Shown here piece after piece: positions 23,204-58,032 of a DNA stretch of 64,000 nucleotides (within the stretch, counting starts at the first letter, position 1; each line of letters starts with the position of its first letter). The stretch is from NCBI GenBank assembly GCA_036388415.1, contig DASVRW010000002.1, positions 789,396 through 853,395 on the forward strand, written 5' to 3'. This stretch comes from Candidatus Saccharimonadales bacterium. Its GTDB lineage: Bacteria; Patescibacteriota; Saccharimonadia; Saccharimonadales; UBA4665. A program made the position numbers and the translations under genes. Below the pieces are notes generated by a model. The model was not told the DNA's origin. It did not search any database and worked only from the letters and a program-made list of their open reading frames with translations.

Positions 23204-23279
23204 GGCGACGTAGCTCAGTGGTTAGAGCACAGGACTCATAAGCCTGGGGTCGGTGGTTCAAATCCACCCGTCGCTACCA
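23204..23279 (+). tRNA. tRNA-Met(CAU), elongator
   Basis: A 76-base cloverleaf with encoded CCA. Acceptor GGCGACG/CGTCGCT, D stem GCTC/GAGC, anticodon loop CTCATAA and T arm GGTGG-TTCAAAT-CCACC. GTAGCTCAG and the GGGTC variable loop resemble elongator tRNA-Met. Two oddities: a G1-U72 end pair and an A31-G39 mismatch at the base of the anticodon loop. Confidence 0.93.
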
Positions 23280-24713: not shown

Positions 24714-25427
24714 CTATAGCCGCTGCCGCCAGCGCTGCCACGGTGCCTGCGCCGGCCAGTGTATAGAGAGGCTGCGCAGGCCTTTCCTGTAGCGCGACGG
24801 TAGGTTCGAAACACGCAGTGAACGGGCTGAAATACCAACCGTTAGAGATGGCACGAAGAGTACGCGTGAGCTTGCTGACAGGTGCATCGACAGGTCAATG
24901 TCATCGTGGATATCGGCTCGCGTGCGGTGCACGTCATCCGCGATTTTTAGCCAAGCCGTACGGCGGATGGCGCAGTTCGACCCAAAGAGCGGCCACTGCG
25001 CGATTGCCGATCCAACGCTTATGAAATAGGCGTACATATACCATACTTGCGCCCACCAATTGACGAGCCAGTGCGTATCATAAAACGTGCCCGGCCCGGT
25101 AATAGCGACAGCTTCCGGGTGCGCCTGCAGCTGTTGTTCTATACGCTGCAGCCAGTCCACAGGGACAATGGAATCGGCGTCACAACGAGCTATTATATCG
25201 CCGGTACTATGCTGGTAGCCGGCATGTGCTGCCGGCATAATTCCCTGCTGCGGTTCAGTAATGACGCGTGCACCGCACTGCCGGGCGATATGCGCCGTGT
25301 CGTCTATGCTGTTGTTATCAACGAGAATAATCTCATCGGCTTGTCTAGTTTGTTGCCGTAAAGCCTGGAGGCAGGCTTCGATAGTTGCCGCTTCGTTATA
25401 GGCAGGAATGACGACTGATATTGTCAT
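24714..25427 (-). CDS. GT2 glycosyltransferase, probable carotenoid glycosylation
   Basis: 237 aa from the ATG overlapping the upstream stop (ATGA). SVVIPAYNEAATIEACLQAL, EIILVDNNSIDDT and RCDADSIVP (DxD) are GT2 A-fold motifs. It is the last gene of the carotenoid operon, so it may glycosylate the hydroxylated C50 carotenoid, as in decaprenoxanthin glucosides. It could instead be an unrelated polyprenyl or lipid glycosyltransferase. Confidence 0.8.
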   Translation of the reverse strand: MTISVVIPAYNEAATIEACLQALRQQTRQADEIILVDNNSIDDTAHIARQCGARVITEPQQGIMPAAHAGYQHSTGDIIARCDADSIVPVDWLQRIEQQLQAHPEAVAITGPGTFYDTHWLVNWWAQVWYMYAYFISVGSAIAQWPLFGSNCAIRRTAWLKIADDVHRTRADIHDDIDLSMHLSASSRVLFVPSLTVGISARSLRVSNLPSRYRKGLRSLSIHWPAQAPWQRWRQRL

Positions 25428-26284
25428 ACAGATAGTACGTGGATGTATATAATTAGCATCGTTGCCGCAAAGCCAGCAAAAAGATTGAGGTAAATAAATT
25501 GCCGCCAAGCTTTATTCGATCGGTGCGAGTCCGCATCAGACACTGCCCGGAACGGAAAAATATTAATAATATACAGCAGCCCGACAACAGCATACAGCGC
25601 AACTGACATGCCGTAAGTCAGCAAAAGCAAACTGCTGGCAGCGTATAATCCGAGTGAAAACCACACTGTTTTACTGGCTCCAAGAGCCGTGGCGATGGAA
25701 CGGATGCCTCCCTCGCGGTCGGGAACAATATCCTGCACTGCCCCAAAGGCGTGTGACGCCATGCCCCATAGGAAAAATGACGCGACAAGCGCATATGCAG
25801 AGCTGGTATGCCCCGCTAGCGTTAGCCCATAGATCAGCGGCCCGACGAAATGAATACTTGACGTAATCGAATCGACAAACGGCCGTTCCTTGAAGCGAAG
25901 TACCGGTACGCTGTACGCCAGCACAAAAAACATGACGACGGCGAGCACGAGATTAGCCGCCAAACTCCCGAGGACAAACAAACCAACCATGAACGGTATG
26001 CCAACGACGGCTGACGCAATCAGGATAGGACGGTGTAAACGCTTAGCAGATAGGGCCCCCTCCATCCCGCCTTTACGCGGGTTTCGAATATCCGATTCAT
26101 AATCATAGACGTCATTAACGCCGTACATGATCAAATTATACGGAATCAGGAAAAATAGCGTCGCAATGACGAAGCGTGTATCAACCGCTCGCTCCAACAC
26201 AAGGTAGGTGGCAGCAAATGGATATGCAGTATTGAGCCATGAAATTGGCCGCGACACTTTTAATAATTGGAGTATCAGGTTCAT
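25424..26284 (-). CDS. crtEb: UbiA-type prenyltransferase, probable lycopene elongase
   Basis: 286 aa with about eight membrane helices. NDVYDYESDIRNPRKGG is the first aspartate-rich motif (NDxxDxxxD) and DIVPDREGGIRSIATALG the second. Position right after heterodimeric cyclase genes, as in Corynebacterium and other C50 producers, points to CrtEb-type addition of two dimethylallyl groups to lycopene. Its start overlaps the crtYd stop (ATGA). A menaquinone or other UbiA role is less likely from context. Confidence 0.82.
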   Translation of the reverse strand: MNLILQLLKVSRPISWLNTAYPFAATYLVLERAVDTRFVIATLFFLIPYNLIMYGVNDVYDYESDIRNPRKGGMEGALSAKRLHRPILIASAVVGIPFMVGLFVLGSLAANLVLAVVMFFVLAYSVPVLRFKERPFVDSITSSIHFVGPLIYGLTLAGHTSSAYALVASFFLWGMASHAFGAVQDIVPDREGGIRSIATALGASKTVWFSLGLYAASSLLLLTYGMSVALYAVVGLLYIINIFPFRAVSDADSHRSNKAWRQFIYLNLFAGFAATMLIIYIHVLSV

Positions 26285-26571
26285 ATCTTGTCTTTCATCT
26301 TTTCCCAAATATACGGTACTAGCAGGCTGGCGCCAATCGCATAAGCAAAATCCTCAATCGGCGCCTTACCGATATATAGCCCGCTGATACGAGATACATC
26401 GTAGGCGACAATGCCGCTCGCAATGATGAGATTGTCAAAAACAACCGTCAATATGAGTAAGGCTGCGGTAGCTGCAAGTATCACTTTCCAGACTATACGC
26501 TGGCGCCCCGTATATACGGCTGCTAGTATCAGCCCGAGCATAACAACGTTTAGTATTAGGTACGTTGCCAT
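26281..26571 (-). CDS. crtYd: Heterodimeric carotenoid cyclase subunit (CrtYd/Yf type)
   Basis: 96 aa, three hydrophobic helices, ending with the conserved PIEDFAYAIGASLLVPYIWE segment of CrtYd/CrtYf subunits. With the next gene it should form a membrane cyclase acting on the psi-ends of lycopene or its C50 derivative. The 16-base overlap with crtYc shows tight coupling. Confidence 0.85.
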   Translation of the reverse strand: MATYLILNVVMLGLILAAVYTGRQRIVWKVILAATAALLILTVVFDNLIIASGIVAYDVSRISGLYIGKAPIEDFAYAIGASLLVPYIWEKMKDKI

Positions 26572-26876
26572 AGTTGCTCTCCGCCGCGGTATAATAGCAG
26601 CGCGCTGTAGGTGAGCAAAGTGAGGAAAAATAACTCTTCAATTGGGAATTCAGCACCGATGCGCAGCCCTGTCAGGTAGGTCGTTTCGCCAACCCGAAAA
26701 ATACGGTTTATAACGCCGAATACATCCCAGACTATAAACACGGCGACGCTTAGCCCGATAGTTGCCAGGGTGCGTTTGCGGTCATAAAACACCGCCAATC
26801 GAAAGCGGTGATCAAGCGTCAGTAGTCCCGATATAGATACCAAAAGCGCAGCAAGATAGGCATATTGTTCAAGCAT
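26556..26876 (-). CDS. crtYc: Heterodimeric carotenoid cyclase subunit (CrtYc/Ye type)
   Basis: 106 aa with three helices and the conserved PIEELFFLTLLTYSALLLY segment of CrtYc/CrtYe subunits. These small paired cyclases are typical of actinobacteria and differ from CrtY/CrtL. It overlaps crtI by 8 bases. Confidence 0.85.
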   Translation of the reverse strand: MLEQYAYLAALLVSISGLLTLDHRFRLAVFYDRKRTLATIGLSVAVFIVWDVFGVINRIFRVGETTYLTGLRIGAEFPIEELFFLTLLTYSALLLYRGGEQLWQRT

Positions 26877-28392
26877 CTGATGATCTCAGCAGTGACGTTA
26901 TCGGCGTCGAAGTCGTATCGCCAGTCAGACGTTTGTAGACGAGTTCGGCACCGATGAGACACATTGGCAAGCCAACTCCTGGCGTCGTGTTAGCACCGAC
27001 ATAGTACAGATTGTTGAGACGCTTGCTGTGGTTAGACGGCCGGAATAGAGCACTTTGATTGAGCCGGTGCGACAAGCCAAGCGCAGTCCCTTGCCAGGCA
27101 TTGTAGGTGTGTGCAAAATCATTCGGCCCGGCCAAACGCTTCACGACAATTCTGTCTTTTAGATCAGCTATGCCCGTCATAGCAACAATTTGATCTAAGT
27201 ACGTTTCTGACAGTGCTTCCAGCTGCTGCGGGGTAACGTCAGGATTGGCAGGCGCGGGTACCAGCACGAACATATTTTCGTGGCCTGCTGGCGCGACCGT
27301 CGCATCAGTCTGACTCGGTTTACAAATATAGATAGAGGCCGGCGTCGGCCAGGTCTTGGTTTTGAAAATAGCATCGAAGTTCGCCCGCCAATCCTCAGTA
27401 AATAGCAGATTGTGATGATCGAGCTCCGGCAGCGAGCCTTTGACGCCGAGATACATCAGAAGTGCTGACGGCCCGGCCTGCTTTTTCTTCCAATAGCCAG
27501 CGTCATAGGTCCGGTTAGCCGGAGCGAGTAGCTGGGTTTCGGTAAAATGCAGATCGGCATTGGAAATGATAATGTCAGCTTCATCGACGGTGCCGTTTTC
27601 CAGGCGGACGCCCGTAGCTATTCCTTGAATGCTCTCAATTTTTGATACTGCCGTGTTGTAGTGATAGGTAACGCCGCTGCGGGTGCCAATTGCGACCAGC
27701 GCCTCGATGATTGCATAGAGTCCGCGCCGTGGATAGAAGACGCCTTGATTAAAGTCCATATGGCTCATCAAACTATATATTGCCGGTGCTTCGTACGGTG
27801 ACGTACCCAAAAATACCATGGGATATTCCATGATCCGTCGCAACCGCGAATCTTGAAAGTAACGGCCGACGTAGCGGTCGATCGGCGTTAGCGCCGCGAC
27901 TGCCATCCTGGGTAATGTTTTGATTGTAGCCGGTCGCAGCATCGTCTGCGGCCGTTCGAAATTCGTGTACAAAAATTGCTCAATTGCAGCCGTATATATA
28001 TCTTCTGACCGTGCGAGGTAGCGTTCCAGGCGCGCACCCGATCCGGACTCAATCTGCTCAAATGTCTGCTTGTCAGCTTCCAGGTCGGCATGGATCGTCA
28101 CCGGCGCGGCCTCACCTTCAAAAAACACTTTGTAGGCCGGATCCAGCCGCTGCAGTTCCAGAAGCGTACTGACATCTTCGCCGAACAGCCGGAAGTATTG
28201 TTCGAAGACTTCCGGCATGAGGTACCACGACGGACCAGTGTCAAATGTGAAACCATCGATGTGCAATCGTCCGGCCCGGCCGCCCGGCTGATCATTCTGC
28301 TCATAGATTACAACTTCGTAACCGCTGGCTGCCAACAGATTAGCCGTAGCCAATCCTCCAATACCGGCTCCGATGATAATAACTTTTTTCAC
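26869..28392 (-). CDS. crtI: Phytoene desaturase CrtI
   Basis: 507 aa. GTG start overlapping the crtB stop (GTGA). KKVIIIGAGIGGLATANLLAASGYEV is the FAD-binding Rossmann motif and QPGGRAG follows; the C-terminal GVGLPMCLIGAELV matches the CrtI ending. It converts phytoene to lycopene in four desaturations. Full family length and no missing residues seen. Confidence 0.95.
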   Translation of the reverse strand: MKKVIIIGAGIGGLATANLLAASGYEVVIYEQNDQPGGRAGRLHIDGFTFDTGPSWYLMPEVFEQYFRLFGEDVSTLLELQRLDPAYKVFFEGEAAPVTIHADLEADKQTFEQIESGSGARLERYLARSEDIYTAAIEQFLYTNFERPQTMLRPATIKTLPRMAVAALTPIDRYVGRYFQDSRLRRIMEYPMVFLGTSPYEAPAIYSLMSHMDFNQGVFYPRRGLYAIIEALVAIGTRSGVTYHYNTAVSKIESIQGIATGVRLENGTVDEADIIISNADLHFTETQLLAPANRTYDAGYWKKKQAGPSALLMYLGVKGSLPELDHHNLLFTEDWRANFDAIFKTKTWPTPASIYICKPSQTDATVAPAGHENMFVLVPAPANPDVTPQQLEALSETYLDQIVAMTGIADLKDRIVVKRLAGPNDFAHTYNAWQGTALGLSHRLNQSALFRPSNHSKRLNNLYYVGANTTPGVGLPMCLIGAELVYKRLTGDTTSTPITSLLRSSDA

Positions 28393-29213
28393 CGCTTAAT
28401 CCTCAGGGCCTGCGGCGCAAGTAGCAGCGCTTTACGGTAAGCCGGAATACGGATACGAGCTTGCTTAATATGGTCGATATCAGCCCGCTCGAGCAGTTCA
28501 AGGAGTGCGTGATAGTAGCTGTAGCTTGTCATGACTGCTGGCCGTACTCCGGCTGGCAGGGCGCGTATATACGGCAGTGCGGCAGCGAAGTCTTGGCGTA
28601 TGTCAGCCGTTACCGTTTGTTTTGCGGCGCCGTCAAAGGTCGCATACGTGTAACCCGGGAAATAGAAGCGCCCGAGCTCCTGATAGTCGTCTTTGATGTC
28701 ACGCAGAAAATTTACCTTCTGGTAAGCTGCTCCCAGCCGCTGGGCGCCAGGCTGCAGTTGCCGATACTGCTCAGCGTTGCCGGCACAAAAGACATGCAGG
28801 CACATTAGTCCAACGACTTCAGCTGAGCCATAAATATACTTGTCATAATTCGCTTGGTCGTAGATTGTAGCCGTCAGGTCCATGCGCATACTGGCAAAAA
28901 ACGATGTGACTAACTGTTGGTCAATGCCCCAGCTTTGGTGTGTCTGAGCATAGGCGTGGATGATTGGATTGGCCGAAAATCCGCGCCGGATAGCCTGATA
29001 TGTTTCTTGCTCTAGTGCGTCAAGTAATTCGGCGCTATCGCTGCCGCGATAGGTGTCGACAATCTCGTCGGCGACACGGACAAGTCCGTAAATATTGTAT
29101 ATATGGCTCTGCATCGCTTGCGGAAACAGCCGGCTGGCTGCCGAAAATGACGTCGAATACTGACGCGTCAATAGCTTCGAAAGCCGTGATGCGGTGTCAG
29201 TATACAAGTCCAT
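28389..29213 (-). CDS. crtB: Phytoene synthase CrtB
   Basis: 274 aa from the ATG overlapping the upstream stop (TGATG). Both aspartate-rich motifs are seen: VRVADEIVDTY and NFLRDIKDDYQELGRFYFPG. It condenses two geranylgeranyl diphosphates to phytoene. A TTG one codon upstream is an alternative start. Confidence 0.95.
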   Translation of the reverse strand: MDLYTDTASRLSKLLTRQYSTSFSAASRLFPQAMQSHIYNIYGLVRVADEIVDTYRGSDSAELLDALEQETYQAIRRGFSANPIIHAYAQTHQSWGIDQQLVTSFFASMRMDLTATIYDQANYDKYIYGSAEVVGLMCLHVFCAGNAEQYRQLQPGAQRLGAAYQKVNFLRDIKDDYQELGRFYFPGYTYATFDGAAKQTVTADIRQDFAAALPYIRALPAGVRPAVMTSYSYYHALLELLERADIDHIKQARIRIPAYRKALLLAPQALRIKR

Positions 29214-30298
29214 CAAAATCTCCGCTTCGTCGCAACCAACAGCAGTTCGTGCAGGTCGGCTTTGTATTCGGACGTGACGTTCATGCCGTCAATGATATCA
29301 GTAGCCGTCCGAATATACTCGTCGATTTGCTGCTGACAGACTCGTTTCGCGCCACTGCGCTCGATAACAGCGCGCAGTGTCTGACATTCATTATCATTCA
29401 GGTCGGGCATGCCGATTAATTCGTCAAGAACCTGTCGATCCGACGAAGTGGCCATTGCATAGGCCTGCTGTAAAATGTAAGTTCGTTTACCTTCGCGTAA
29501 ATCACCACTGTTACTCTTGCCAGTTAGAGCTGGATCGCCGTATATTCCCAACATATCATCCACGAGTTGAAAGGCGCACCCGAGGGCGACGCCGAATTGT
29601 CGGATATCGTCCAAATCAGCTACCGATGCCCCGGCAATCGCCGCTCCCGCCGACATTGGTCCAACAAACGAATAGAGCGCAGTTTTGTAGGCCGCGACCG
29701 TTAACGGCTCAGCCGTTACGAACGTTTGTAGAGTTGATTCAGTATCAAGTAGCTCACCGCCCGCCACGGCGAAAATCGCATCAGCCAGGTAGCGTTGCGC
29801 GACTAATTTCTGTTCTGAGGTCAGCTCAGAACTATCGAGCACAATTTCATACGCCGACGACAAAGCCAAATCGCCAGCCAGCAGCGCCGCACTGGCCGCC
29901 AAATGCTGCCTCCGTTCTAGTGACGGTTCGTTATCATAGATATCCATATACGATCCGGCAATGTTTTTGACCCCATAGCGTATCAGGTCATTATCAATGA
30001 TGTCGTCATGGATCAGCATCGACAAGTGCAACAATTCCCAGGCAGCAGCCACAGAGATTATCTGATCGTGACGACTGCCACCAAATGCATGATAACCGAG
30101 CACGGCCATATATGGCCGCAGTCGTTTGCCGCCCGCTTGATTAAGTCTGGCCACGTCTTGCCATAACCGTTCATATGATCCTGCGATGTGAGCCGAGCGC
30201 CGTATACGCTCCTCAAAAAAAGTAGCCAGCGCAGCATTAACATCATTCAGCACCGAGGCACGCGTCGGTCGGGCCGTTGTAGTGGCCGTCTTAAGCAT
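29213..30298 (-). CDS. crtE: Geranylgeranyl diphosphate synthase
   Basis: 361 aa from the ATG overlapping the tetR stop. HDDIIDND is the first aspartate-rich motif and FQLVDDMLGIYGD the second; the DDxLG-x-x-GD form is common in actinobacterial IdsA/CrtE enzymes. It makes the C20 precursor for CrtB. No isoprenoid-precursor (MEP/mevalonate) genes are in the window, so IPP/DMAPP must come from genes elsewhere or from a host. Confidence 0.93.
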   Translation of the reverse strand: MLKTATTTARPTRASVLNDVNAALATFFEERIRRSAHIAGSYERLWQDVARLNQAGGKRLRPYMAVLGYHAFGGSRHDQIISVAAAWELLHLSMLIHDDIIDNDLIRYGVKNIAGSYMDIYDNEPSLERRQHLAASAALLAGDLALSSAYEIVLDSSELTSEQKLVAQRYLADAIFAVAGGELLDTESTLQTFVTAEPLTVAAYKTALYSFVGPMSAGAAIAGASVADLDDIRQFGVALGCAFQLVDDMLGIYGDPALTGKSNSGDLREGKRTYILQQAYAMATSSDRQVLDELIGMPDLNDNECQTLRAVIERSGAKRVCQQQIDEYIRTATDIIDGMNVTSEYKADLHELLLVATKRRF

Positions 30299-30884
30299 GG
30301 ACGGCCTCGCTGCGCGTGAGAGCACGTTCGATACAGACTGCCAGCTGCTCGACTAATACTTGTGTATCAGCCTGCGACAAATCCTGATCGAAATATTCCA
30401 TCAAAAAGCCGTTGACCATATGTGTTGTTGCTTTAGCCGAGAACATTTCTGAATCAGGGCCATATATACCTTGTTCAACACCGCGTCGGATAACGCGCAG
30501 CATGTGCTGATAGGCATGAACTGGTACATAGCCCCCGTCGGTACTGGGAAAATCCTGGCGCATTGCCATAAAATACTGCAGCAAGGCTACGATGTAGGTG
30601 CGGTTTCTGAGCTGAAAGGCAATTGTCAGCCGCAGCAGTGTCGATGCATCGGCCTTGTCCGGATACGTCTGATCTCTAGTCAGTTGGTCAATAATATACA
30701 TTCTTGTGGCGCGGAGCAATGACTCCTTGTCGGCAAAATGAGCATAAATATTTGATGGCTCTTTGCCAATAGTCGCGGCAATCTTCCGCATCGAAGTCCC
30801 GGCATAGCCCTCGCGGGCGAGAATCGGTATAGTCTGGATAATAATATCTTCTTTGGTATGCATACTGTGTGACGAGCCGCTCAT
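30291..30884 (-). CDS. TetR-family repressor of the carotenoid operon
   Basis: 197 aa. Residues 10-58 form the TetR helix-turn-helix: ILAREGYAGTSMRKIAATIG and SNIYAHFADKESLL. The ligand domain is not family-specific. As first gene of the operon, with a palindromic operator between its promoter and start, it probably represses itself and the pathway. The inducing ligand is unknown; a prenyl diphosphate would be a reasonable guess only by analogy with CrtR-type control. Confidence 0.88.
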   Translation of the reverse strand: MSGSSHSMHTKEDIIIQTIPILAREGYAGTSMRKIAATIGKEPSNIYAHFADKESLLRATRMYIIDQLTRDQTYPDKADASTLLRLTIAFQLRNRTYIVALLQYFMAMRQDFPSTDGGYVPVHAYQHMLRVIRRGVEQGIYGPDSEMFSAKATTHMVNGFLMEYFDQDLSQADTQVLVEQLAVCIERALTRSEAVHA

Positions 30885-30886
30885 TT

Positions 30887-30932
30887 ATCGTTGTTTAACG
30901 ATCGTTCGATAATGTTTATTATACATCATAAG
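30887..30932 (-). promoter_or_regulatory. TetR operon promoter and operator
   Basis: On the minus strand TATAAT (about 30921-30926) is followed by an operator with the perfect palindrome AACGATCGTT nested in an outer TTATCG...CGATAA inverted repeat, ending just before the tetR ATG. A repressor bound here would block the start of the whole carotenoid transcript. Confidence 0.65.
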
Positions 30933-39950: not shown

Positions 39951-41396
39951 ATGGCTCTTTTTAACACAACAAATAAACCTAGTACCGTCACAAATTTGGC
40001 GGGCGGAAATGCATACGAGCAATCCCCTGAAAACGCCTTAGTTTCTTTGCTGCTTACCAATTTTCTACGTAATCAAACTTATCGTTCAGGTAGCGATGCC
40101 TTAAGCTCGTTACAGGAGCTTATATCTAAAGTTGACCCGTTATTTGCGGCTAAGGCCGGCATCTACGCTCGTCATGAGTATGGCATGCGTTCTGTTAGTC
40201 ACGTACTCGCCGGTGAGCTTGCGCATAGCGTCAAGGGCGAAGCATGGACTAGACATTTTTATGAAAAGGTTGTTCGCCGTCCTGATGACATTACAGAAAT
40301 TGTAGCCTATTACCTTCAGGAATATGGCAAGCCTTTGCCGAACTCTCTCAAGCAAGGACTAGCTAAGTCATTTGACAAATTTGATACCTACCAGCTGGCT
40401 AAATATCGTAGCAAGACAAATAAAATATCACTTGTTGATGTCGTAAATCTGGTGCACCCACGTCCAAGCGAAAAAAATGGTGATGCGTTAAAAGCCCTGG
40501 TCAGTGGAGAGCTTCGATCAGAGAATACATGGGAAAGCCGTATTTCAGCAGCCGGACAGAGTACTGCTCAACGCGGCCTGGTCTGGAAAGATTTACTTGA
40601 AACGAACAAACTCGGTTACTTCGCTTTGCTCCGCAACTTACGCAACATCATGACAGATGCTCCCGGCTCAGTTGCACTCGCATGCGAGCAGCTTGTCGAC
40701 GAAAACAGGATCAAGAAGTCTTTGGTTCTACCATTCCGCTTCACGACAGCTTTGAAGGAAATTGGCCAGATTCCAGAATCTCGAGAAGTCGTCTCGGCGC
40801 TGTCAAAAGCTATTGATATTTCTGCGCAGAATTGTCCACAATTTGACGGTAGCACGCTAATCGCTGTCGATACCTCAGGCTCAATGAGTGGCCGTCCTTC
40901 CGAAATTGCTACTCTATTTGCTGCAATGCTCTACAAGAAAAACAGCGGGGCTGACTTGCTCCTATTTGATACGCAGGCGCATCCGATTACACCCAATCCA
41001 AATGATTCGATCATATCCATAGCACAATCTATGCCATTCCATGGCGGCGGTACTGACTTCAATATCATCTTCAATTATGCTCACAAAGCGTACGATCGAA
41101 TTATAATTCTATCTGATATGCAGGCGTGGTCGGATGAAGGTATGGATGGCTGGATGATATACAACGGCTCGCACGGACATAATGGCGACCCCAAAGCCGC
41201 ACTAGCTGACTATCGTAAGCGCACCGGCGCTAACCCAAAGCTATATTCGTTCGACCTTCAGGGATATGGCTCCATCGCTTTTCCAGAAAAGAACGTTTAC
41301 AGTCTGGCTGGTTTCTCTGACAAGGTACTCGACCTCATGGGTGCGCTCGAATCAGGCGAAAGTTTAGTCGATAGTATTAATAAGGTTGAACTATAG
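39951..41396 (+). CDS. rsr: Ro60-like RNA-binding protein (Rsr; TROVE plus vWA)
   Basis: 481 aa, ribosome site GGAGGAG 4 bases before the ATG. Residues 15-285 form the TROVE HEAT-like ring, including AGIYARHEYGMRSVSHVLAGELAH. From about 300 a vWA domain follows with an intact MIDAS: IAVDTSGSMSG, FHGGGTDFN and IILSDMQAW. In other bacteria the ring holds Y RNA on its rim and misfolded RNA in its hole, aiding RNA decay with PNPase. Directly upstream lies its Y RNA, downstream RtcB. Confidence 0.95.
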   Translation: MALFNTTNKPSTVTNLAGGNAYEQSPENALVSLLLTNFLRNQTYRSGSDALSSLQELISKVDPLFAAKAGIYARHEYGMRSVSHVLAGELAHSVKGEAWTRHFYEKVVRRPDDITEIVAYYLQEYGKPLPNSLKQGLAKSFDKFDTYQLAKYRSKTNKISLVDVVNLVHPRPSEKNGDALKALVSGELRSENTWESRISAAGQSTAQRGLVWKDLLETNKLGYFALLRNLRNIMTDAPGSVALACEQLVDENRIKKSLVLPFRFTTALKEIGQIPESREVVSALSKAIDISAQNCPQFDGSTLIAVDTSGSMSGRPSEIATLFAAMLYKKNSGADLLLFDTQAHPITPNPNDSIISIAQSMPFHGGGTDFNIIFNYAHKAYDRIIILSDMQAWSDEGMDGWMIYNGSHGHNGDPKAALADYRKRTGANPKLYSFDLQGYGSIAFPEKNVYSLAGFSDKVLDLMGALESGESLVDSINKVEL

Positions 41397-41412
41397 TCGG
41401 GCGTACCCAGCT

Positions 41413-41646
41413 ATGAAGCGTGTTACCTTCTATTTAGACGACGACGAATATCGTAGCCTCAAGATAGTACTGGCAATACACGGCATGAGTGCCAGCGAAT
41501 GGTTGCGCCACCAGATGGCCCAGTACGTAAAAGGCGCCATGCCAAACGTACCGCTGAATGAACTAAAGAATTATCCTCGGGCACCTAAGCGCGAAATACA
41601 ACATCCAAAACCAGATAACTTCAATGAAGATATCGATTTACAATAG
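41413..41646 (+). CDS. Ribbon-helix-helix protein between rsr and rtcB
   Basis: 77 aa from ATG 41413; an overlapping start at 41386 is possible. MKRVTFYLDDDEYRSLKIVLAIHGMSASEWLRHQM is a ribbon-helix-helix pattern (strand then two helices). A basic Pro-rich tail follows (NYPRAPKREIQHPKPDN). It could autoregulate the operon or bind RNA. Its place inside an Ro-RtcB operon is not something I know from other bacteria. Confidence 0.75.
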   Translation: MKRVTFYLDDDEYRSLKIVLAIHGMSASEWLRHQMAQYVKGAMPNVPLNELKNYPRAPKREIQHPKPDNFNEDIDLQ

Positions 41647-41665
41647 AATATAAGGACATTCCACT

Positions 41666-42838
41666 ATGCAGAAAATTACTAAAAAATTATACAATTGGGC
41701 ATCAATCTTAGACGACAATGCCAAAGAGCAGACTCTCCGGACATCGGCGATGCCCTTTGTTTTACCACATCTCGCTTTAATGCCTGATGCGCATATGGGA
41801 GCTGGCGCAACTGTTGGTTCAGTCATACCGACCGTCGGAGCTATTATGCCGGCAGCCGTTGGTGTGGATATCGGATGTGGCATGATAGCCGTAAAAACGC
41901 AGTTCAAAACCAGTGACCTTACAGATAAGGATCTGGGCGTCTTGAGGCACAGCATTGAGCGGTCAATACCGCTATCTGCCGGTAAGTTCAATCATAAATT
42001 GACTGATTCAGTGAAGCCACGGATTGCCGAACTTGAAAACATGGCTGGTGAGCGGAAATCGTTTTACGACAAATTAACTCGAACGAGCTGGGTATATCAA
42101 CTCGGTACGCTTGGTTCGGGTAATCACTTTATTGAAATCACTGTCGATCAAGACGAAACTATTTGGTTATTCCTGCACAGCGGCAGCCGCGGCATAGGTA
42201 ATTCCATAGCCATGCATCACATCAAGATTGCCCAGGAAAATATGAAAAAGTGGTACATCAAGCTTGAAGACGACGATTTAGCATACCTCGTAGAAAACAC
42301 ATCCGAGTTTGATCAGTATATTTTTGATCTCAATTGGGCACAGCATTTTGCTTTGCTGAACCGCGAAGAAATGATGGATAGAGTCATTAAAGATTTCGAG
42401 CATTTTATGGGCAATAAAGTCATAGAAAGTGAGCGCATCAACTGCCACCACAACTTCACTCAAAAAGAGAACCACATGGGTCGTAATGTCTGGCTTAGCC
42501 GCAAGGGCGCCATTCAGGCAGATAAAGGCCGCAAAGGCTTGATTCCCGGATCTATGGGTACAGCCAGCTACGTGGTCGAGGGCAAAGGCTATGCTCCATC
42601 CTATAACTCGGCTCCGCATGGTGCTGGTCGAGTATGGGCTCGCAAAGCAGCTTCCAGGCACTTCACGATCGACGACCTAGATAAAGCCATGGTCGGCATT
42701 GAATACAATCGTTCTGAAGCATTTTTGGACGAAATACCAGATGCCTACAAAGATATCGATGTCGTCATGCATGACGCCAATGATTTAGTTGAAATTAAAA
42801 ACACTTTTCATCAAATTGTAAACGTCAAAGGCGATTAG
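41666..42838 (+). CDS. rtcB: RNA ligase RtcB
   Basis: 390 aa. MPDAHMGAGATVGSVIPT, VGVDIGCGM (metal cysteine C71), LGTLGSGNHFIEI, HSGSRGIGN, INCHHNF and SAPHGAGRVWARK (guanylylated histidine) are all present. It joins RNA 2',3'-cyclic phosphate or 3'-phosphate ends to 5'-OH ends using GTP. With the Ro protein it suggests salvage of cleaved structured RNAs. No RtcA or archease seen in the window. Confidence 0.97.
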   Translation: MQKITKKLYNWASILDDNAKEQTLRTSAMPFVLPHLALMPDAHMGAGATVGSVIPTVGAIMPAAVGVDIGCGMIAVKTQFKTSDLTDKDLGVLRHSIERSIPLSAGKFNHKLTDSVKPRIAELENMAGERKSFYDKLTRTSWVYQLGTLGSGNHFIEITVDQDETIWLFLHSGSRGIGNSIAMHHIKIAQENMKKWYIKLEDDDLAYLVENTSEFDQYIFDLNWAQHFALLNREEMMDRVIKDFEHFMGNKVIESERINCHHNFTQKENHMGRNVWLSRKGAIQADKGRKGLIPGSMGTASYVVEGKGYAPSYNSAPHGAGRVWARKAASRHFTIDDLDKAMVGIEYNRSEAFLDEIPDAYKDIDVVMHDANDLVEIKNTFHQIVNVKGD

Positions 42839-43582: not shown

Positions 43583-44494
43583 TCAGATGCGCTTACGAAC
43601 GACCAGGCTTGCCGAAGATAAAAATGCGATTACAGCTACCGGCGCTGCCCAAAGAGGCAGGCTGGCGGCCGGTGCACCGCCACCACTATTTGGCAGTCCG
43701 GGCGTCTTGGAAGTCGTAGTTGCAGTTGCAGCGGCTGCATTCGTACCGGAAGCAGTAGTAGAAGCAGCTGGCGCTGAGGCAGCAGAACATACAGGCACGG
43801 TATTGATAGTGTCAGTCGTCGTAGCCACCGTACCGCCAAACGCTAATGCCCGGCCGGTCCAATTGACTGTCGAGCCAACAGTAATGCCTGCAGGATTTAT
43901 GATTGTACCTATAAAAGTTGAACTTGCTCCAAGCGTTGTGGCCGCACCTGGTGTCCAGAAAAGGTTGCAGGCCGAAGCCCCGCCCCCGCCTGTCGCTGTC
44001 ACGATCGAATTAGCGGAAGTACTAAGCGCTCCAGTTGATCGGAAAATATAGACACCCGCCCCATTCAACGTTATCGTACCGCCTCCACCTATCGAGACTG
44101 CCCCGTCAATACAATACACGCCCGGCGTATACTCTCCGACATTGCCGAACGGTGCTTCAATAGCAAGATCCTTGGCTCCAGCCGGAAAAGTAAACGTACA
44201 CGGCTGACTATTAAGCTCAGATAGAGCACTGGCTTGGTCGATTCCGGCTTGATTGTAGGCAGCATTAGCCACATGAGTATTACCAGAAACCGTCGGAGCA
44301 ACCGCTGGTGGTGTCGTATAGCCCAGATCACCATTGATAACGGTTCCAATTGCCGTATTGGTGTAGCTACCGGCTAATACGCTATACGTATTTGTGGTAC
44401 CTAGATTTGGCTGCGGAGCAGCATATAGGACGGGCGTTATAAGAAACACCCCTAAGAATACTGCGAGTATGCCTTTGTGTCTTAATGACTTCAT
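43583..44494 (-). CDS. Sortase-anchored DUF3494 ice-binding protein
   Basis: 303 aa: signal peptide (GILAVFLGVFLITPVLYA), a DUF3494 beta-solenoid (about 28-235; YSVLAGSYTNTAIGTVINGDLGY, ACNLFWTPGAATTLGASSTFIGTI), Ala/Thr-rich stalk, then LPNSGGG, a hydrophobic helix and RKRI. The last three form an LPxTG-like sorting signal. Family members bind ice; a surface-tethered form could hold cells to ice or act as an adhesin. Cys residues at about 98, 128, 176 and 232 could form disulfides. Confidence 0.88.
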   Translation of the reverse strand: MKSLRHKGILAVFLGVFLITPVLYAAPQPNLGTTNTYSVLAGSYTNTAIGTVINGDLGYTTPPAVAPTVSGNTHVANAAYNQAGIDQASALSELNSQPCTFTFPAGAKDLAIEAPFGNVGEYTPGVYCIDGAVSIGGGGTITLNGAGVYIFRSTGALSTSANSIVTATGGGGASACNLFWTPGAATTLGASSTFIGTIINPAGITVGSTVNWTGRALAFGGTVATTTDTINTVPVCSAASAPAASTTASGTNAAAATATTTSKTPGLPNSGGGAPAASLPLWAAPVAVIAFLSSASLVVRKRI

Positions 44495-45569: not shown

Positions 45570-46100
45570 CTATCGCCGAGAATTTAACCAATGGCTTAAC
45601 TCTACCGAGCTCTTTAAAATCCATTCATTATCTGTGTCGGATTTAATCTGTAAGGAAATATCTTCATAACAAACTTTATTGCCTACCAGAAACTGAGATG
45701 CCTTCAAAGGATCACGTAGCGTATTGATAAGCGGTTTTATTATATACAAAACCTGTTTCTGGAATGTCGAACCAGACCATTGTTCGTCTTTCTGTATACT
45801 CAGAGGCCGCTCGTACTTTCTCTGTAGGGATTTAATAAGGTGAAATAAATCTACCCATTCAAATTCCACATTATCTTTGCGTAGTTTTATATTTGCATTC
45901 AGGTCGATTTCATTCTTTTCGGCATAATTGCTTGATATAAACTCAAAGATTAGTGTGACGTCACGATTATTAATATATAGACTACTGCTTTCAAGCCGAC
46001 ACTCAATTGGGGCGACATCATTCACTATCGACCGCAATACGTCCTTGCGTGTCCATAATTTACCATCCACTCGTTTTTTATAACCTTTGAAGACTTTCAT
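45570..46100 (-). CDS. Immunity protein for Rhs-REase toxin (predicted)
   Basis: 176 aa from ATG 46100, which overlaps the toxin stop (TAATG); a frame-internal start at 46121 would overlap more. Soluble alpha/beta protein, no family recognised (VDLFHLIKSLQRKYERPLS). Direct coupling to the toxin gene makes it the predicted neutralising partner. Confidence 0.7.
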   Translation of the reverse strand: MKVFKGYKKRVDGKLWTRKDVLRSIVNDVAPIECRLESSSLYINNRDVTLIFEFISSNYAEKNEIDLNANIKLRKDNVEFEWVDLFHLIKSLQRKYERPLSIQKDEQWSGSTFQKQVLYIIKPLINTLRDPLKASQFLVGNKVCYEDISLQIKSDTDNEWILKSSVELSHWLNSRR

Positions 46101-47821
46101 TACCGACACCCTCTTTGACATTTATACTTGAAACTACCATACCATGTCTTCTTATAGGTCCACAATGAGCCTTGACGTTTTTGTGCATCGTTTGCTACGT
46201 AGCGGTTGAGCTGTTTCATTCCTTGATCAATTGCACGCCTATTATGCGGTTTTAACTCGACAAGCTTACCCTTGATTACACCATCAGCACGGCCGGCGCC
46301 CTTAATTGTAGTCTCACTTGTCTTGTATTTAGCTTGAAACGCCCTATGAGCTTGACGCCCCATGACCATCGTACTCTTAAATTCTTTCCCTGCTTTGGCC
46401 GCCTGTGCAGCTTTTACTGCAGCTCCCGCCCCCACGGATGCCGCACCAATAGTCGCAACAGCAATCAATGCTTGTTTCCTGTCCCCAGCCGCCGCATAAG
46501 CCGCTGCAGATACCGCGGCACTTGCCATCCCAATCGGTCCAGGTATCACAGACCCGATACTAGCAATGGACGCTATCCCTTTCATACTCATTTGGCCCGT
46601 CAAATCGTAATCGTTCACCGGATCCGGCGGATACACATAGCTGTTTGGCGTACCACCTTCTACTTGGTCGACACTGGCAAATCTGCCGAGCGTCGGAAAG
46701 TAAACTCTAGCTCCCATTTGGATGGGGGCGAGAGCGAGGCTGGTTTCAGTAATCTTTTGGTGTTGACCGACCCAACCGTAGGATCCACTTGCATGGTTGT
46801 CTGGGTGGGTGCTGCCAGGCAGGATGTTGCCGAATGGATCGTAGGCGTAGGTTGCGGCTGGGCCGTTGCCGGTGGAAGTGTTGACTCCGCTGGCGTTAGC
46901 GGTAAGCATGGTATCGCCATGGATGTTTGGGAGAGAGTATTGTTTCTGAGCGTTGCCTGTTTCCTGCGGCTTGATCGTTACGTTGACGCCGCCCGGCAGC
47001 TGTAGGGTTTTTTCGACTATTTCCCAATTGCCATTCCGAACAAAATCAGGCGCATCACCACTTCCCGTATGCCCATACCAATACTGGTTAGTGACATTCC
47101 AGTTCCAGTTAGTAATTGCATCTTTTTCGCGGTAAATTATCCGGCCTTGGACGTCGCGACCGTAGTACATACCCGTACCATTGCCCGAACTGTCATAGCT
47201 GTCGAGGCAGCTGTTCCTATCGGAACTGTCGTAGCATAGACGGATTGGGGTAGCATTGGTACCCATATTTGTCATATTGCCGTGGCCGTCATACACAGCA
47301 GCGGTGCTTGCTGCATCTGTGCTAGTTATGAGCCGGTCAGCATGATCGTAACAGTATTTTGTTGTTACGTTATTAACAGTCATGCTTGTCCGGTTGCTAT
47401 TCTTACCGGCATTTGGATTCATATTGCCGGCATTGCCACAGAAATTTGCGTCCTGCTGGCCAAACCCGTAATCATACGAATGCGACCCAATGTCGGCATG
47501 CGTCAGTCGGCCTGCTTTGTCGTACATATATGAGTTCCACAGGTCCTGGCTGCCGGATGACACGATACTATGTTGTGTCTGTCCTGACTGCGATCGCACG
47601 ACGTTGTTAGTAACCGTTTGTGCCGAATTAGCTTCTTTCAGTTCGGCATCATCGAGCTGCAACCAACCGACCGCTCCTAGTGTATGGTACATGCTCAGTT
47701 TTTTAGCCGTCGCTGGTGTCGTAAAGCTATGGCTAGCCTGTGTCCAAGTGGGGCTGGCATTATTGCCACCGATCCATGTATATGTCACGCTATTATCCTG
47801 GTGCGTAACCTGTGCCAGCAC
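46100..47821 (-). CDS. 5'-truncated Rhs protein with restriction-endonuclease-fold toxin tip
   Basis: 573 aa from GTG 47821; the frame is open back to a TGA at 47879 and lacks signal peptide and most YD repeats, so the 5' part is lost. Rhs repeats ([16 protein letters not shown]) end in the core border [31 protein letters not shown]. After an Ala-rich helix region (about 425-480) comes [32 protein letters not shown], a PD-(D/E)xK-type nuclease core. It may survive as an orphan toxin module or as recombination stock. Confidence 0.8.
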
Positions 47822-49790: not shown

Positions 49791-49830
49791 CAAGAAAAAT
49801 GACCCATCCGAAGATGAGTCATTTTTCTTG
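49791..49830 (-). terminator. Terminator after tRNA-fMet
   Basis: A 13-bp stem (49791-49803 with 49818-49830) with an inner CATC/GATG extension and CGAA loop. The 3' arm on minus contains TTTTTCTT. It begins at the tRNA CCA end. Confidence 0.75.
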
Positions 49831-49903
49831 GTTGCGGGACCAGGACTCGAACCTGGGACCTCGTGGTTATGAGCCACGCGAGCTGCCGCTGCTCCATCCC
49901 GCG
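49829..49903 (-). tRNA. Initiator tRNA-fMet(CAU)
   Basis: 75 bases with encoded CCA. Acceptor CGCGGGA/TCCCGCA has the C1-A72 mismatch that marks initiators; anticodon loop CTCATAA; T arm CCAGG-TTCGAGT-CCTGG. The anticodon stem is CGTGG/CCACG, so position 29-41 is U-A where the usual three G-C pairs have G-C. Confidence 0.95.
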
Positions 49904-50586: not shown

Positions 50587-50662
50587 GGGGGCGTAGCTCA
50601 GTGGTTAGAGCAGTCGGCTCATAACCGATTGGTCGCTGGTTCAAGTCCAGCCGCCCCCACCA
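50587..50662 (+). tRNA. tRNA-Ile2(CAU)
   Basis: 76 bases with encoded CCA; acceptor GGGGGCG/CGCCCCC, anticodon loop CTCATAA. The variable loop and T arm (TGGTC, GCTGG-TTCAAGT-CCAGC) match what I remember of E. coli ileX rather than tRNA-Met. TilS (19837-20730) would convert C34 to lysidine so that it reads AUA. Confidence 0.85.
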
Positions 50663-54796: not shown

Positions 54797-54895
54797 CTAT
54801 TTCTTCTTGTGATCATTTTGCTTACGTTTTATCAGATATATAAGAACAAATAATGAGAAGAGTAATAAAAACTGTATTAATTTATCGTAATCCAT
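54797..54895 (-). CDS. 32-aa membrane peptide coupled to the active Rhs gene
   Basis: ATG overlaps the Rhs stop (TAATG). One hydrophobic helix (LIQFLLLFSLFVLIYLI) then RKQNDHKKK. Coupling to the toxin-bearing gene and membrane location make it the predicted immunity peptide of the active tip. Confidence 0.6.
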   Translation of the reverse strand: MDYDKLIQFLLLFSLFVLIYLIKRKQNDHKKK

Positions 54896-57800
54896 TATTT
54901 GCAAAATCCTCCTCCGTAAATTGAAAATGCTGAGTATCCTCCGCCAACAAATAATGACGCTAAGCTACTAATAGGTGACGCATATGTAATGAACGCTACA
55001 GATAAATCTGCTGCAAGTTTATCCGCATTAGAGCATGCGCCGCCGCTTTTGAATGAAAATCCGCTGCTCAATTCACTCGTCCCCAAACAGTCACTACGGG
55101 CCGTATAAGTACACGGTGCATATCCACTCGGGTCTATGAGATTCACCGGATTCGCCCCGGCATACACATACCCGTACTCTACTCCGCTAGGATCGAGCTG
55201 TGTCCAACGAGCATCAGTAGAATTGTAGTACCGAGCTCCCATTTTGTACAGTTGTGTTTGGTAGTCGTAGTAGGCTCCAGCGTAGCGCCAAGGATTCTGG
55301 ACTGAGCCAGTTGAGCTGAGTAGCGTACCGTATGGGTCGTAGTCGTAGGTATTTTGAACGGTGCCGTTTATGTCAGTAACTTTGACTATGGAGCCACGGA
55401 GATCAGTCAGGAAGTAGTAGGCTGCGCCGTTGACGACTTCGCCAACTACCGGACCATCGCCGTGCGTAGAGTGCGTGTAGTATCGGGTGTTCGTACCGGC
55501 TACGTCACTGTATAGGCCTAGGATACCGTTATGCTGCGCGTCGGCGCCGATCTGTGTACGGTCGGTTTGCCCGACGTCCGCGTAAGATGCGGTAATGGTC
55601 GGGTTGCCGGCTGGCGTAAACGCCGTTGTCTGGTTTTTGGCGTTATAGCCCATATTTACCCCGCGGCCGAGCCAGGTTTGGTTGCCGGCGGTGTCAAACG
55701 TACCCCAAGGATTGCCGGTTGCGGTCACGATATGGTTCGAGACATTGAAGCCGTACAGCGAGCTATAATTACCGTTTTTAGAATGTTGTGTCCGGTTGCC
55801 GTTGGCGTCATAGGCATAGGTATAGCTGTTCGCACCGGCACCGACGCCGTTTACAGCTGTCAGCCTATTAAGCCCGTCATATACGTAGTTACTCGTCCGA
55901 CCAAGGAGGTTGTTGGTTTCGGACTGAAGCAAGTCGGAATCTTTGTTGGCTGTAGTGGTATATGATCCGGTGAAGTGCGTTAGCACGGTTGCGCCCTTCA
56001 TAGCTTTTATTGACGTTTTTCGTCCGGCATTGTCGTATGTCATCGTCTGCGTGATACCGCCGGGCAACGTCATGGCTGTCATGCGCCCATCAGTAAAGGT
56101 AGCCGTCTGTGTCGCGCCGTTGCTAGATTGGTTAATACTTGCCAGCTGATTAGCATTGTCGTAAGTGTACGTAGTTGTTCCGGCAGGACCAACTTCGGTC
56201 AATAAGTTTCCGGCTGCATCATACGTATAGTTTAGGCCTGGTCTGTTCGGCTGCCCGAGGTAAACCACCCGATTAAAGACATCGTGAGTGTAAGTGGTCG
56301 TGCCTGACGCATCAATACGCTGTATCAAAGTCCCGTCGGCGTTATAGTCATAGTCAACGACCGAACCATCTTTGGCGTACGTAGCAACTGTGGGGCGATC
56401 GGCGTTATCGTAATCAATCGTGACTTTAGACCCCACGCCATCAGTGACAGTTTTCACGCGCGCTAGGTTGTCGTATGTATAGTCGGTTCGTCCCATTGGT
56501 CCGGGAGGTACGACCTGAATTAAGTTACCGTTAGTATCGTAAGAATACGTTGTCAAGTTGCCGCGCGGATCGGTCATAATGCAAAGCTGACCGTTCTTAC
56601 CATTACAAGTAATTATGCCTCCTGAGCCGTTCGAATCGCCTTGATACTTGTATGTAGTGGTCGCCATGTGAGCGCCACTAGCACTCGCTTTTACTTCGCT
56701 GGTCACACTCTTGTTGGTATTGTAGGTGTACGTGGTGGTATTTCCCGCTGAGTCTATAGCCTTTGATGGTAGGTGTGGATGAGTAGTATTGTTATATTCA
56801 TAGGTAGATTTAGAGCCGGCAACTCCACCGGTTGTCGTAGGATTCTGTCTGGCTGTAAGATTATTAAGCGTATCAAAAGTTGCTGTCTTAATTTGAGCAG
56901 ATGGGTCTTTGATGGCTGTCTGATTATTGTTAGCATCCCAGGTAGCACCTCGGCTTTCACCAACTGCATCTATGATATCTATCACCCGTCCTCCAGCGTC
57001 ATAGGAGTACGTCGTATTGTGGCTTAGCGGATCGCTCACAACTGTATTGTTCGTGTTATACGTGTAGTTATATTCCGCAACGGCAGTCGTATAGTCTGCA
57101 TATTTGATTTTGGTGACCCGGCTAGCCGCGTTATACACAATGGTTGTCGTCTTACCACTCGGCGTATCAATCTGGTTCAGTCCGTAATCGTTCGGGAAGT
57201 AGAACAGCTTCCACACACCACCCATAGTGTCAGTCAGACCAGTCAGCTTGCCACTAGTATACGTATAATTGACTGTCCGTCCTGCTGGATCGGTAATAGT
57301 ACCGATATTAGTACCTGAGTAATTCGTAAACGTCGTTATCTTCCCTTGCGCGTCGGTCGCCGACGCCAGCGTGCCATTAGTATTATAGGCATAGGTAAGC
57401 TCTAGTCCTGCAGCGTCAGTATGCTTGATTTGCTTGCCTGCCGCATTAAAGATGTAAAATTCGCCAGTTTTATTGAAGGTCAGTTTCCAGCCACCACCAG
57501 TAACTACACTTAACTTTGCCTCAGTATATGCGGCCGGGGTAGTGTATCCGCCGGCACCGTTGGAGAGAAATGTGACACGAAATCCAGATGGTCCTTGGTA
57601 CGTGGCTGACCCATTGGCATTCGCCGTAATAGTAATATCTCCACCGATACTTAAAGTGCCGTTCATGCCCACCTGTCCTGAGCCACTGCCAAGATTGTTA
57701 TAATAGCGGGTAATATTTAGGTCGGGACCAACGCTGGCTACTTTTAATTCCTCAGATTTCAGAATAAGGTTACCGTTAGCTACATTGACATCAATACCGA

Positions 57801-58032
57801 CGCGGTCAGTTAATGGCCGAGATTGTAGTGTTTGGTAGGGTAAATCGCCGAGAACTAACGGCCCTATTGCCTGTACTCCAGTCTGGCTCGTAGTTAAGAC
57901 TACTGCCGCTACAACAGTCAGTCCAAGGGTCATGAGAGATCCGATCGCGCGGTATGGATGCTTTACTATTGTTCTCGCCACACTGCCGTGCAATCGATAA
58001 ACTTTATGTTTAGCAAATATCGCTCGATGCAT
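54895..58032 (-). CDS. Secreted Rhs/YD-repeat (WapA-like) protein with active tip
   Basis: 1045 aa. Signal/anchor segment at about 30-52 (IGSLMTLGLTVVAAVVLTTS), a DUF6531-like start (GIDVNVANGNLILKSEELKV), then about 25 YD repeats such as TTYSYDAGGRVIDI, forming the hollow Rhs shell. The border YKMGARYYNSTDARWTQLDP and YGYVYAGANPVN leads to a 76-residue tip with five cysteines and a hydrophobic end (YASPISSLASLFVGGGYSAF). No PxxxxDPxGL autocleavage motif was noted. It probably delivers the tip to a contacted cell. Four spare tips follow downstream. Confidence 0.88.
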   Translation of the reverse strand: MHRAIFAKHKVYRLHGSVARTIVKHPYRAIGSLMTLGLTVVAAVVLTTSQTGVQAIGPLVLGDLPYQTLQSRPLTDRVGIDVNVANGNLILKSEELKVASVGPDLNITRYYNNLGSGSGQVGMNGTLSIGGDITITANANGSATYQGPSGFRVTFLSNGAGGYTTPAAYTEAKLSVVTGGGWKLTFNKTGEFYIFNAAGKQIKHTDAAGLELTYAYNTNGTLASATDAQGKITTFTNYSGTNIGTITDPAGRTVNYTYTSGKLTGLTDTMGGVWKLFYFPNDYGLNQIDTPSGKTTTIVYNAASRVTKIKYADYTTAVAEYNYTYNTNNTVVSDPLSHNTTYSYDAGGRVIDIIDAVGESRGATWDANNNQTAIKDPSAQIKTATFDTLNNLTARQNPTTTGGVAGSKSTYEYNNTTHPHLPSKAIDSAGNTTTYTYNTNKSVTSEVKASASGAHMATTTYKYQGDSNGSGGIITCNGKNGQLCIMTDPRGNLTTYSYDTNGNLIQVVPPGPMGRTDYTYDNLARVKTVTDGVGSKVTIDYDNADRPTVATYAKDGSVVDYDYNADGTLIQRIDASGTTTYTHDVFNRVVYLGQPNRPGLNYTYDAAGNLLTEVGPAGTTTYTYDNANQLASINQSSNGATQTATFTDGRMTAMTLPGGITQTMTYDNAGRKTSIKAMKGATVLTHFTGSYTTTANKDSDLLQSETNNLLGRTSNYVYDGLNRLTAVNGVGAGANSYTYAYDANGNRTQHSKNGNYSSLYGFNVSNHIVTATGNPWGTFDTAGNQTWLGRGVNMGYNAKNQTTAFTPAGNPTITASYADVGQTDRTQIGADAQHNGILGLYSDVAGTNTRYYTHSTHGDGPVVGEVVNGAAYYFLTDLRGSIVKVTDINGTVQNTYDYDPYGTLLSSTGSVQNPWRYAGAYYDYQTQLYKMGARYYNSTDARWTQLDPSGVEYGYVYAGANPVNLIDPSGYAPCTYTARSDCLGTSELSSGFSFKSGGACSNADKLAADLSVAFITYASPISSLASLFVGGGYSAFSIYGGGFCK
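55190..55273 (-). repeat. 84-bp perfect repeat, copy in active Rhs gene
   Basis: Identical to 52343-52426; encodes YYDYQTQLYKMGARYYNSTD ARWTQLDP at the core/tip border of the expressed gene. Tip 4 (53994-54090) carries a shorter, diverged version. Confidence 0.9.

Follow-up and report, generated by a model that had tools for sequence, protein, structure and literature searches.

A predicted operon for a cyclic C50 carotenoid in a Saccharimonadales genome without marker enzymes of isoprenoid unit synthesis

Cyclic C50 carotenoid pathways are best known from Actinobacteria. The operon of Corynebacterium glutamicum is crtE-cg0722-crtBIYeYfEb (PMC3598387), and bacteria that have an elongase, a cyclase and CrtX are known to make glycosylated cyclic C50 carotenoids (PMC5401885). 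Among Patescibacteria, bacterioruberin-type (C50) lyeJ, crtD and cruF genes have been reported from Lake Baikal, including in a Saccharibacterial genome (PMC9948471). We found no report of a cyclic C50 operon in Saccharibacteria in the literature searched, which left subscription journals mostly outside its coverage. Here we describe a stretch of 64,000 nucleotides (the window) from a Candidatus Saccharimonadales bacterium (GCA_036388415.1, contig DASVRW010000002.1, positions 789,396-853,395), in which eight genes lie on the minus strand at 24714-30884 in the order tetR-crtE-crtB-crtI-crtYc-crtYd-crtEb-GT2, the last encoding a family 2 glycosyltransferase (GT2). We consider it quite likely that they are a complete operon whose product is a cyclic C50 carotenoid, probably glycosylated, of the decaprenoxanthin/sarcinaxanthin/C.p.450 class, in a cell that would be unable to make C5 units. 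Saccharibacteria are reduced bacteria, presumed to lack many biosynthetic routes and to live on other bacteria; their known hosts are Actinobacteria. The bacterium studied here is probably such a host-dependent epibiont.

Gene families were assigned with Pfam and NCBIfam profile models at their curated cut-offs (Table 1). With the best-placed starts, the seven junctions from tetR to the glycosyltransferase gene overlap by 8, 1, 4, 8, 16, 4 and 4 bases, all eight frames are free of internal stops, and the catalytic motifs read from the translations are intact across the operon enzymes. These coordinates, profiles and junctions bear out a first-pass annotation of the same DNA, which had described an eight-gene operon of this order and these families with overlaps of 1-16 bases. 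The scores of the elongase, CrtI and the cyclases, together with the same gene order in about two dozen genomes, confirm that the operon is real and more than a chance arrangement.

The assignment to C50 rather than C40 carotenoids is carried by the elongase and the paired small cyclases, all above cut-off, in agreement with the C50-type layout proposed in the first-pass annotation. The model that detects the elongase, NF009608, also detects C. glutamicum among its control genomes, and the NDxxDxxxD and DxxxD motifs are present in the window CrtEb. On models of the bacterioruberin elongase LyeJ the same protein stays under the cut-offs (PRK12875, 148.6 vs 205; PRK13595, 157.2 vs 248); a Saccharimonadales genome with a LyeJ-type elongase passes PRK12875 (263.6 vs the cut-off of 205). 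The two adjacent cyclase subunits have 96-106 amino acids each, and CrtYc scores 22.8 on PF18916, under the cut-off of 27. The genes for lycopene synthesis, crtE, crtB and crtI, are all above their family cut-offs, overlap one another and share the operon with the elongase. CrtE is the single PF00348 match in the genome and the only trans-polyprenyl synthase found.

Table 1. Genes of the predicted carotenoid operon, with positions in the window and the profile scores or motifs that identify them.
Feature	Position	Strand	Evidence
TetR-family regulator, first gene of the operon	30291-30884	-	PF00440 1.7e-9
crtE, geranylgeranyl diphosphate synthase	29213-30298	-	PF00348 8.5e-46; motifs DDIID, DDMLG
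crtB, phytoene synthase	28389-29213	-	PF00494 3.5e-46; motifs DEIVD, DIKDD
crtI, phytoene desaturase to lycopene, GTG start	26869-28392	-	TIGR02734 541 bits (cut-off 238); motif GAGIGG
crtYc-type half of heterodimeric carotenoid cyclase	26556-26876	-	TIGR03462 55.5 bits (cut-off 39.4); PIEE
crtYd-type half of heterodimeric carotenoid cyclase	26281-26571	-	TIGR03462 50.6 bits (cut-off 39.4); PF18916 42.8 bits (cut-off 27); PIED
crtEb, UbiA-type lycopene C5 elongase	25424-26284	-	NF009608 402.6 bits (cut-off 217); NDVYDYESD, QDIVPD
GT2 glycosyltransferase, probable CrtX role	24714-25427	-	PF00535 1.7e-29; collinear homologs beside actinobacterial crt clusters

Compared with the actinobacterial cyclic C50 operons, the window operon has the same enzymes, and its E-B-I-Y-Y-Eb order matches the clusters of Micrococcales and, with cg0722 left out, that of C. 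glutamicum. A glycosyltransferase gene is sometimes found near those operons, as in the window. The regulators differ: C. glutamicum has a divergent MarR-type CrtR, whereas the window operon starts with a TetR gene and has no cg0722-like gene. The Baikal genes resemble it in being C50 carotenoid genes of bacteria of the candidate phyla radiation (CPR), but they belong to acyclic bacterioruberin synthesis and do not form one operon in that report (PMC9948471), whereas here a CrtEb-type elongase is part of the operon. Judged by its sequence, the operon belongs to, and would work like, the cyclic C50 operons known from Actinobacteria; it is the host that is unexpected.

By analogy with C. glutamicum (PMC3598387), the pathway would lead from geranylgeranyl diphosphate (GGPP) through phytoene and lycopene to a C50 carotenoid, followed by cyclisation and glycosylation. 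CrtE would join scavenged isopentenyl diphosphate (IPP) and scavenged dimethylallyl diphosphate (DMAPP), or use a scavenged longer prenyl diphosphate, to make GGPP, which CrtB would turn into phytoene and CrtI into lycopene. CrtEb would then add one C5 unit at each end of lycopene, yielding a flavuxanthin-type C50 intermediate, CrtYc and CrtYd would close the rings, and GT2 would place a sugar on the terminal hydroxyls. In a class-level relative (locus L093, G319:C9), a single frame of 684 amino acids joins a CrtEb-type elongase to a GT2-like glycosyltransferase domain, which is consistent with this role of GT2. The pigment is predicted to act as an antioxidant and to stiffen the membrane in which it would sit, in a cell that respires. 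The cell can probably respire oxygen, because cytochrome o oxidase subunit III (CyoC) and heme o synthase are encoded, by adjoining genes. Enzyme activities, ring type, glycosylation, scavenging, regulation and role are thus all predictions of this scheme.

An own supply of IPP and DMAPP, as in known C50 producers, is a feature of the cell and not of the operon, and it was not found in this genome. The first-pass annotation had proposed a search for genes of the methylerythritol phosphate (MEP) pathway, and the marker enzymes turned out to be absent. In profile searches of the genome we detected no GHMP kinase (PF00288), which rules out both IspE and the mevalonate kinases, and no IspH (PF02401). 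In this respect the genome differs from those that carry the actinobacterial operons. UppS is encoded and, like heme o synthase and CrtE, consumes prenyl diphosphates. Because the marker enzymes are absent and enzymes that use prenyl diphosphates are present, C5 or longer prenyl diphosphates are probably obtained from the host or the environment. Published genome analyses point the same way: freshwater CPR classes other than Gracilibacteria seem capable of the C10-C20 steps only (PMC9166423), and a soil Saccharibacterium has been inferred to scavenge isopentenyl-PP (PMC6031116). IspH is above the cut-off in only 2 of the 295 sampled genomes of the order and in none of the 31 genomes with an elongase, 29 of which also lack GHMP kinases, and scavenging of isoprenoid units is probably a general trait of Saccharimonadales. 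The two genomes with IspH (G411 and G414) have no GHMP kinase, so their MEP pathway would be incomplete. About one in ten sampled Saccharimonadales genomes thus has a pathway to a pigment of ten C5 units, and the genome studied here has it without IspH or GHMP kinases. This combination leads to the prediction that the host or the environment provides the isoprenoid units of the pigment; if so, the pigment would make the flow of isoprenoids between epibiont and host visible.

Several points weigh against this interpretation. The ring type (epsilon, gamma or beta) is not readable from sequence, the trees described below being without the characterised cyclases of C. glutamicum, Micrococcus luteus and Dietzia, and C40 or C45 products may be formed. 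That GT2 acts on the carotenoid is probable from its gene neighbourhood only. As to precursors, a type-2 IPP isomerase was not found in the genome either, but a type-1 isomerase was not searched for. Finally, a CrtEb-type elongase was found in none of the four congeners of the window genome, so the carotenoid trait appears dispensable.

Beyond the genus, related genes are spread over the order. A CrtEb-type elongase is encoded in 31 of the 295 Saccharimonadales genomes, 27 of them above the cut-off; the 31 include both the CrtEb kind and its bacterioruberin-type relative. All 31 are among the 39 genomes with a phytoene synthase, and all have a polyprenyl synthase, vs 13 of 32 genomes without an elongase. 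In the phylum, 47 of 380 genomes encode lycopene-cyclase domains. About two dozen Saccharimonadales from several families keep the crtE-B-I-Yc-Yd-Eb order, with mostly different flanking genes, and dozens of Actinobacteria have it as well. Three genomes of one genus (loci L089-L091) have CrtI with a LyeJ-type elongase instead. Among deep branches of the trees, L087 (G067) has a rearranged C50-type cluster, Yc-Yd-Eb-I-E-B, and in L088 (G447), likewise rearranged, crtI is divergent from a cyclase gene and the elongase gene. In eight genomes (G504, G529, G560, G438, G445, G450, G451 and G469) a phytoene synthase-family protein was found but no CrtEb-type elongase; these are perhaps makers of C40 carotenoids or squalene.

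To place the operon we built trees of CrtI, of CrtEb, of CrtI with outgroups and of six concatenated proteins. The actinobacterial sample was limited to the 80 best matches; the Actinobacteria in the trees are Micrococcales and one Nocardioidaceae and do not include Mycobacteriales, Corynebacterium, Dietzia or Micrococcus luteus. Groupings were compared with approximately unbiased (AU) tests (LG+G4, 22 rows), for which the tested groups were chosen after the trees had been inspected. In every tree the Actinobacteria of the sample come together as a single clade (support 100/100 for CrtI and the concatenation, 90/94 for CrtEb), and the window sequences fall outside it in all of them, which also sets the window operon apart from the actinobacterial ones. 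Two deep groupings are not rejected: the window with all Actinobacteria as one clade (p-AU 0.33) and the Saccharibacterial core without L086 and L087 as one clade (p-AU 0.138). A single clade of the operons from the window's own family is rejected (p-AU 5e-5), so lineages of Saccharibacteria have exchanged the operon or lost it unevenly.

The actinobacterial kinship noted in the first-pass annotation therefore stands, in that the genes are related to the operons of Micrococcales; this kinship is old, and the trees fit either direction. We regard as fairly likely an ancient exchange between Saccharibacteria and Actinobacteria, in either direction, after which the operon was repeatedly transferred and lost within Saccharimonadales. 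This reading concerns the origin of the operon only and is compatible with the C50 pathway proposed above. It is in line with the tolerance of both deep groupings, the scatter of the own-family operons and the patchy presence of the elongase (31/295) between differing flanks; the restriction of the actinobacterial sample to best matches without Mycobacteriales counts against it. Old gene exchange would then explain why Saccharibacteria have a pathway best known from Actinobacteria, the group that includes the known hosts.

When the CrtI tree is rooted with outgroups, all sampled Actinobacteria make up a single branch amid several lineages of Saccharibacteria, and other Saccharimonadales branch outside these. 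Because of this placement, the cyclic C50 operon of Micrococcales could have come from Saccharibacteria, which we consider unlikely; if it did, common yellow actinobacteria would owe their pigment to an epibiont that passed it to its hosts. Statements on the direction of transfer are limited because Corynebacterium and Dietzia are outside the trees.

That an actinobacterial host recently passed on the whole operon, an idea close to the transfer that the first-pass annotation had thought likely, is quite improbable. Such an acquisition would account for the gene order shared with Micrococcales, for a CrtEb that is equally close to Saccharibacteria and Actinobacteria (59% identity) and for the distribution of GT2 relatives. 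The crt clusters of Arthrobacter, Pseudarthrobacter, Georgenia, Citricoccus, Actinotalea and Aeromicrobium have GT2 homologs next to them, mostly 41-46% identical, whereas no similarly strong homolog was found beside the other Saccharibacterial crt clusters examined. This points to an actinobacterial link of its own for the GT2 gene. Against recent acquisition, the AU test rejects trees in which the window is forced inside the actinobacterial clade, above the earliest branch there (p-AU 8e-6), and the proposed check by phylogeny went against a placement within the sampled Actinobacteria. Best identities are clearly higher to Saccharibacteria than to Actinobacteria for CrtI (60 vs 48%), CrtB (54 vs 46%) and CrtE (47 vs 39%), and most operon proteins of other Saccharimonadales are 40-60% identical to those of the window. 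The operon has a guanine-cytosine (GC) content of 0.52, which matches the remainder of the window, vs 0.66-0.74 in four actinobacterial loci. For the Micrococcales and Nocardioidaceae sampled here, recent acquisition is largely refuted. The DDxLG form of CrtE, which had been taken to look actinobacterial, is indeed present (as DDMLG), but it is common in other Saccharibacterial CrtE proteins too, which rules it out as an actinobacterial signature. Carriage by phage is unsupported, as our search of IMG/VR viral contigs returned no CrtEb relative. On plasmids, CrtEb relatives were limited to one Arthrobacter megaplasmid and five haloarchaeal records. The crt genes of the Chloroflexi bacterium isolate PMG_070 (L158) group firmly inside Saccharibacteria, and for this reason that contig is probably mis-binned or mislabelled.

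The first-pass annotation had also raised the possibility that the carotenoid serves a rhodopsin. We consider it very improbable that beta-carotene (C40) from this pathway is a source of retinal, or that the pathway serves a rhodopsin in some other way. Small heterodimeric cyclases do occur in the beta-carotene pathways of rhodopsin-bearing Actinobacteria (PMC7734400), and other Saccharibacteria have a rhodopsin without retinal synthesis (PMC9296517). In the genome studied here, a family search found no rhodopsin, and the elongase gene shares the operon. Across the 295 Saccharimonadales genomes, none of the nine with a rhodopsin is among the 39 with a phytoene synthase, but this separation does not reach significance (p 0.27). 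The Saccharibacterial rhodopsin system (PMC9296517) and the proposed C50 pathway have in common that a membrane isoprenoid trait is thought to use isoprenoids supplied by the host. They differ in that rhodopsin is present in the former and was not found here, and that the gene sets did not overlap in the sample. The carotenoid operon would thus be a membrane adaptation of Saccharibacteria other than rhodopsin.

That the operon is contaminating or mis-binned DNA from outside Saccharibacteria is barely credible: the absence of crt genes from the four sampled congeners would fit, but the window lies within a contig of 1,100,649 bases in a 1.14 Mb genome of 2 contigs (98.98% complete, 0.78% contaminated), the operon has the composition of its surroundings, and related operons occur in other Saccharimonadales, single-contig genomes included. 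The genome itself had been described as Saccharibacteria-like, and a relative from its family and several from its order are indeed deposited as Ca. Saccharimonadia and Ca. Saccharibacteria, respectively.

Upstream of tetR, a perfect 10-bp palindrome, AACGATCGTT, is found at 30897-30906 within a wider inverted repeat (30885-30912). It sits between the tetR start and a TATAAT (about 30918-30923) that was read from the sequence and was not flagged on that strand by a consensus promoter scan. The palindrome is a possible TetR operator and would fit autoregulation, with the TetR product likely repressing the operon from this site before its own start. No TetR homolog was found by tblastn beside the other crt clusters examined (loci L063-L183).

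Elsewhere in the window, a protein with an ice-binding-like domain (43583-44494, minus strand; PF11999 1.2e-20) makes a cold habitat possible, which would fit a membrane-stiffening pigment. A TROVE-domain (Ro60-like) protein is followed by an RtcB RNA ligase (39951-42838, plus strand), as in operons for RNA repair or processing. Two minus-strand genes, for an RHS-repeat protein of 1045 amino acids (54895-58032) and a protein of 573 amino acids with a C-terminal Tox-REase-9 domain (46100-47821), flank a stretch of lower GC content (44-55 kb, mostly about 0.38-0.45); their products are possible contact-dependent effectors. The only tRNA genes of the window are three for tRNA-Met (cat) within 28 kb, at 23204-23279, 49829-49903 and 50587-50662.

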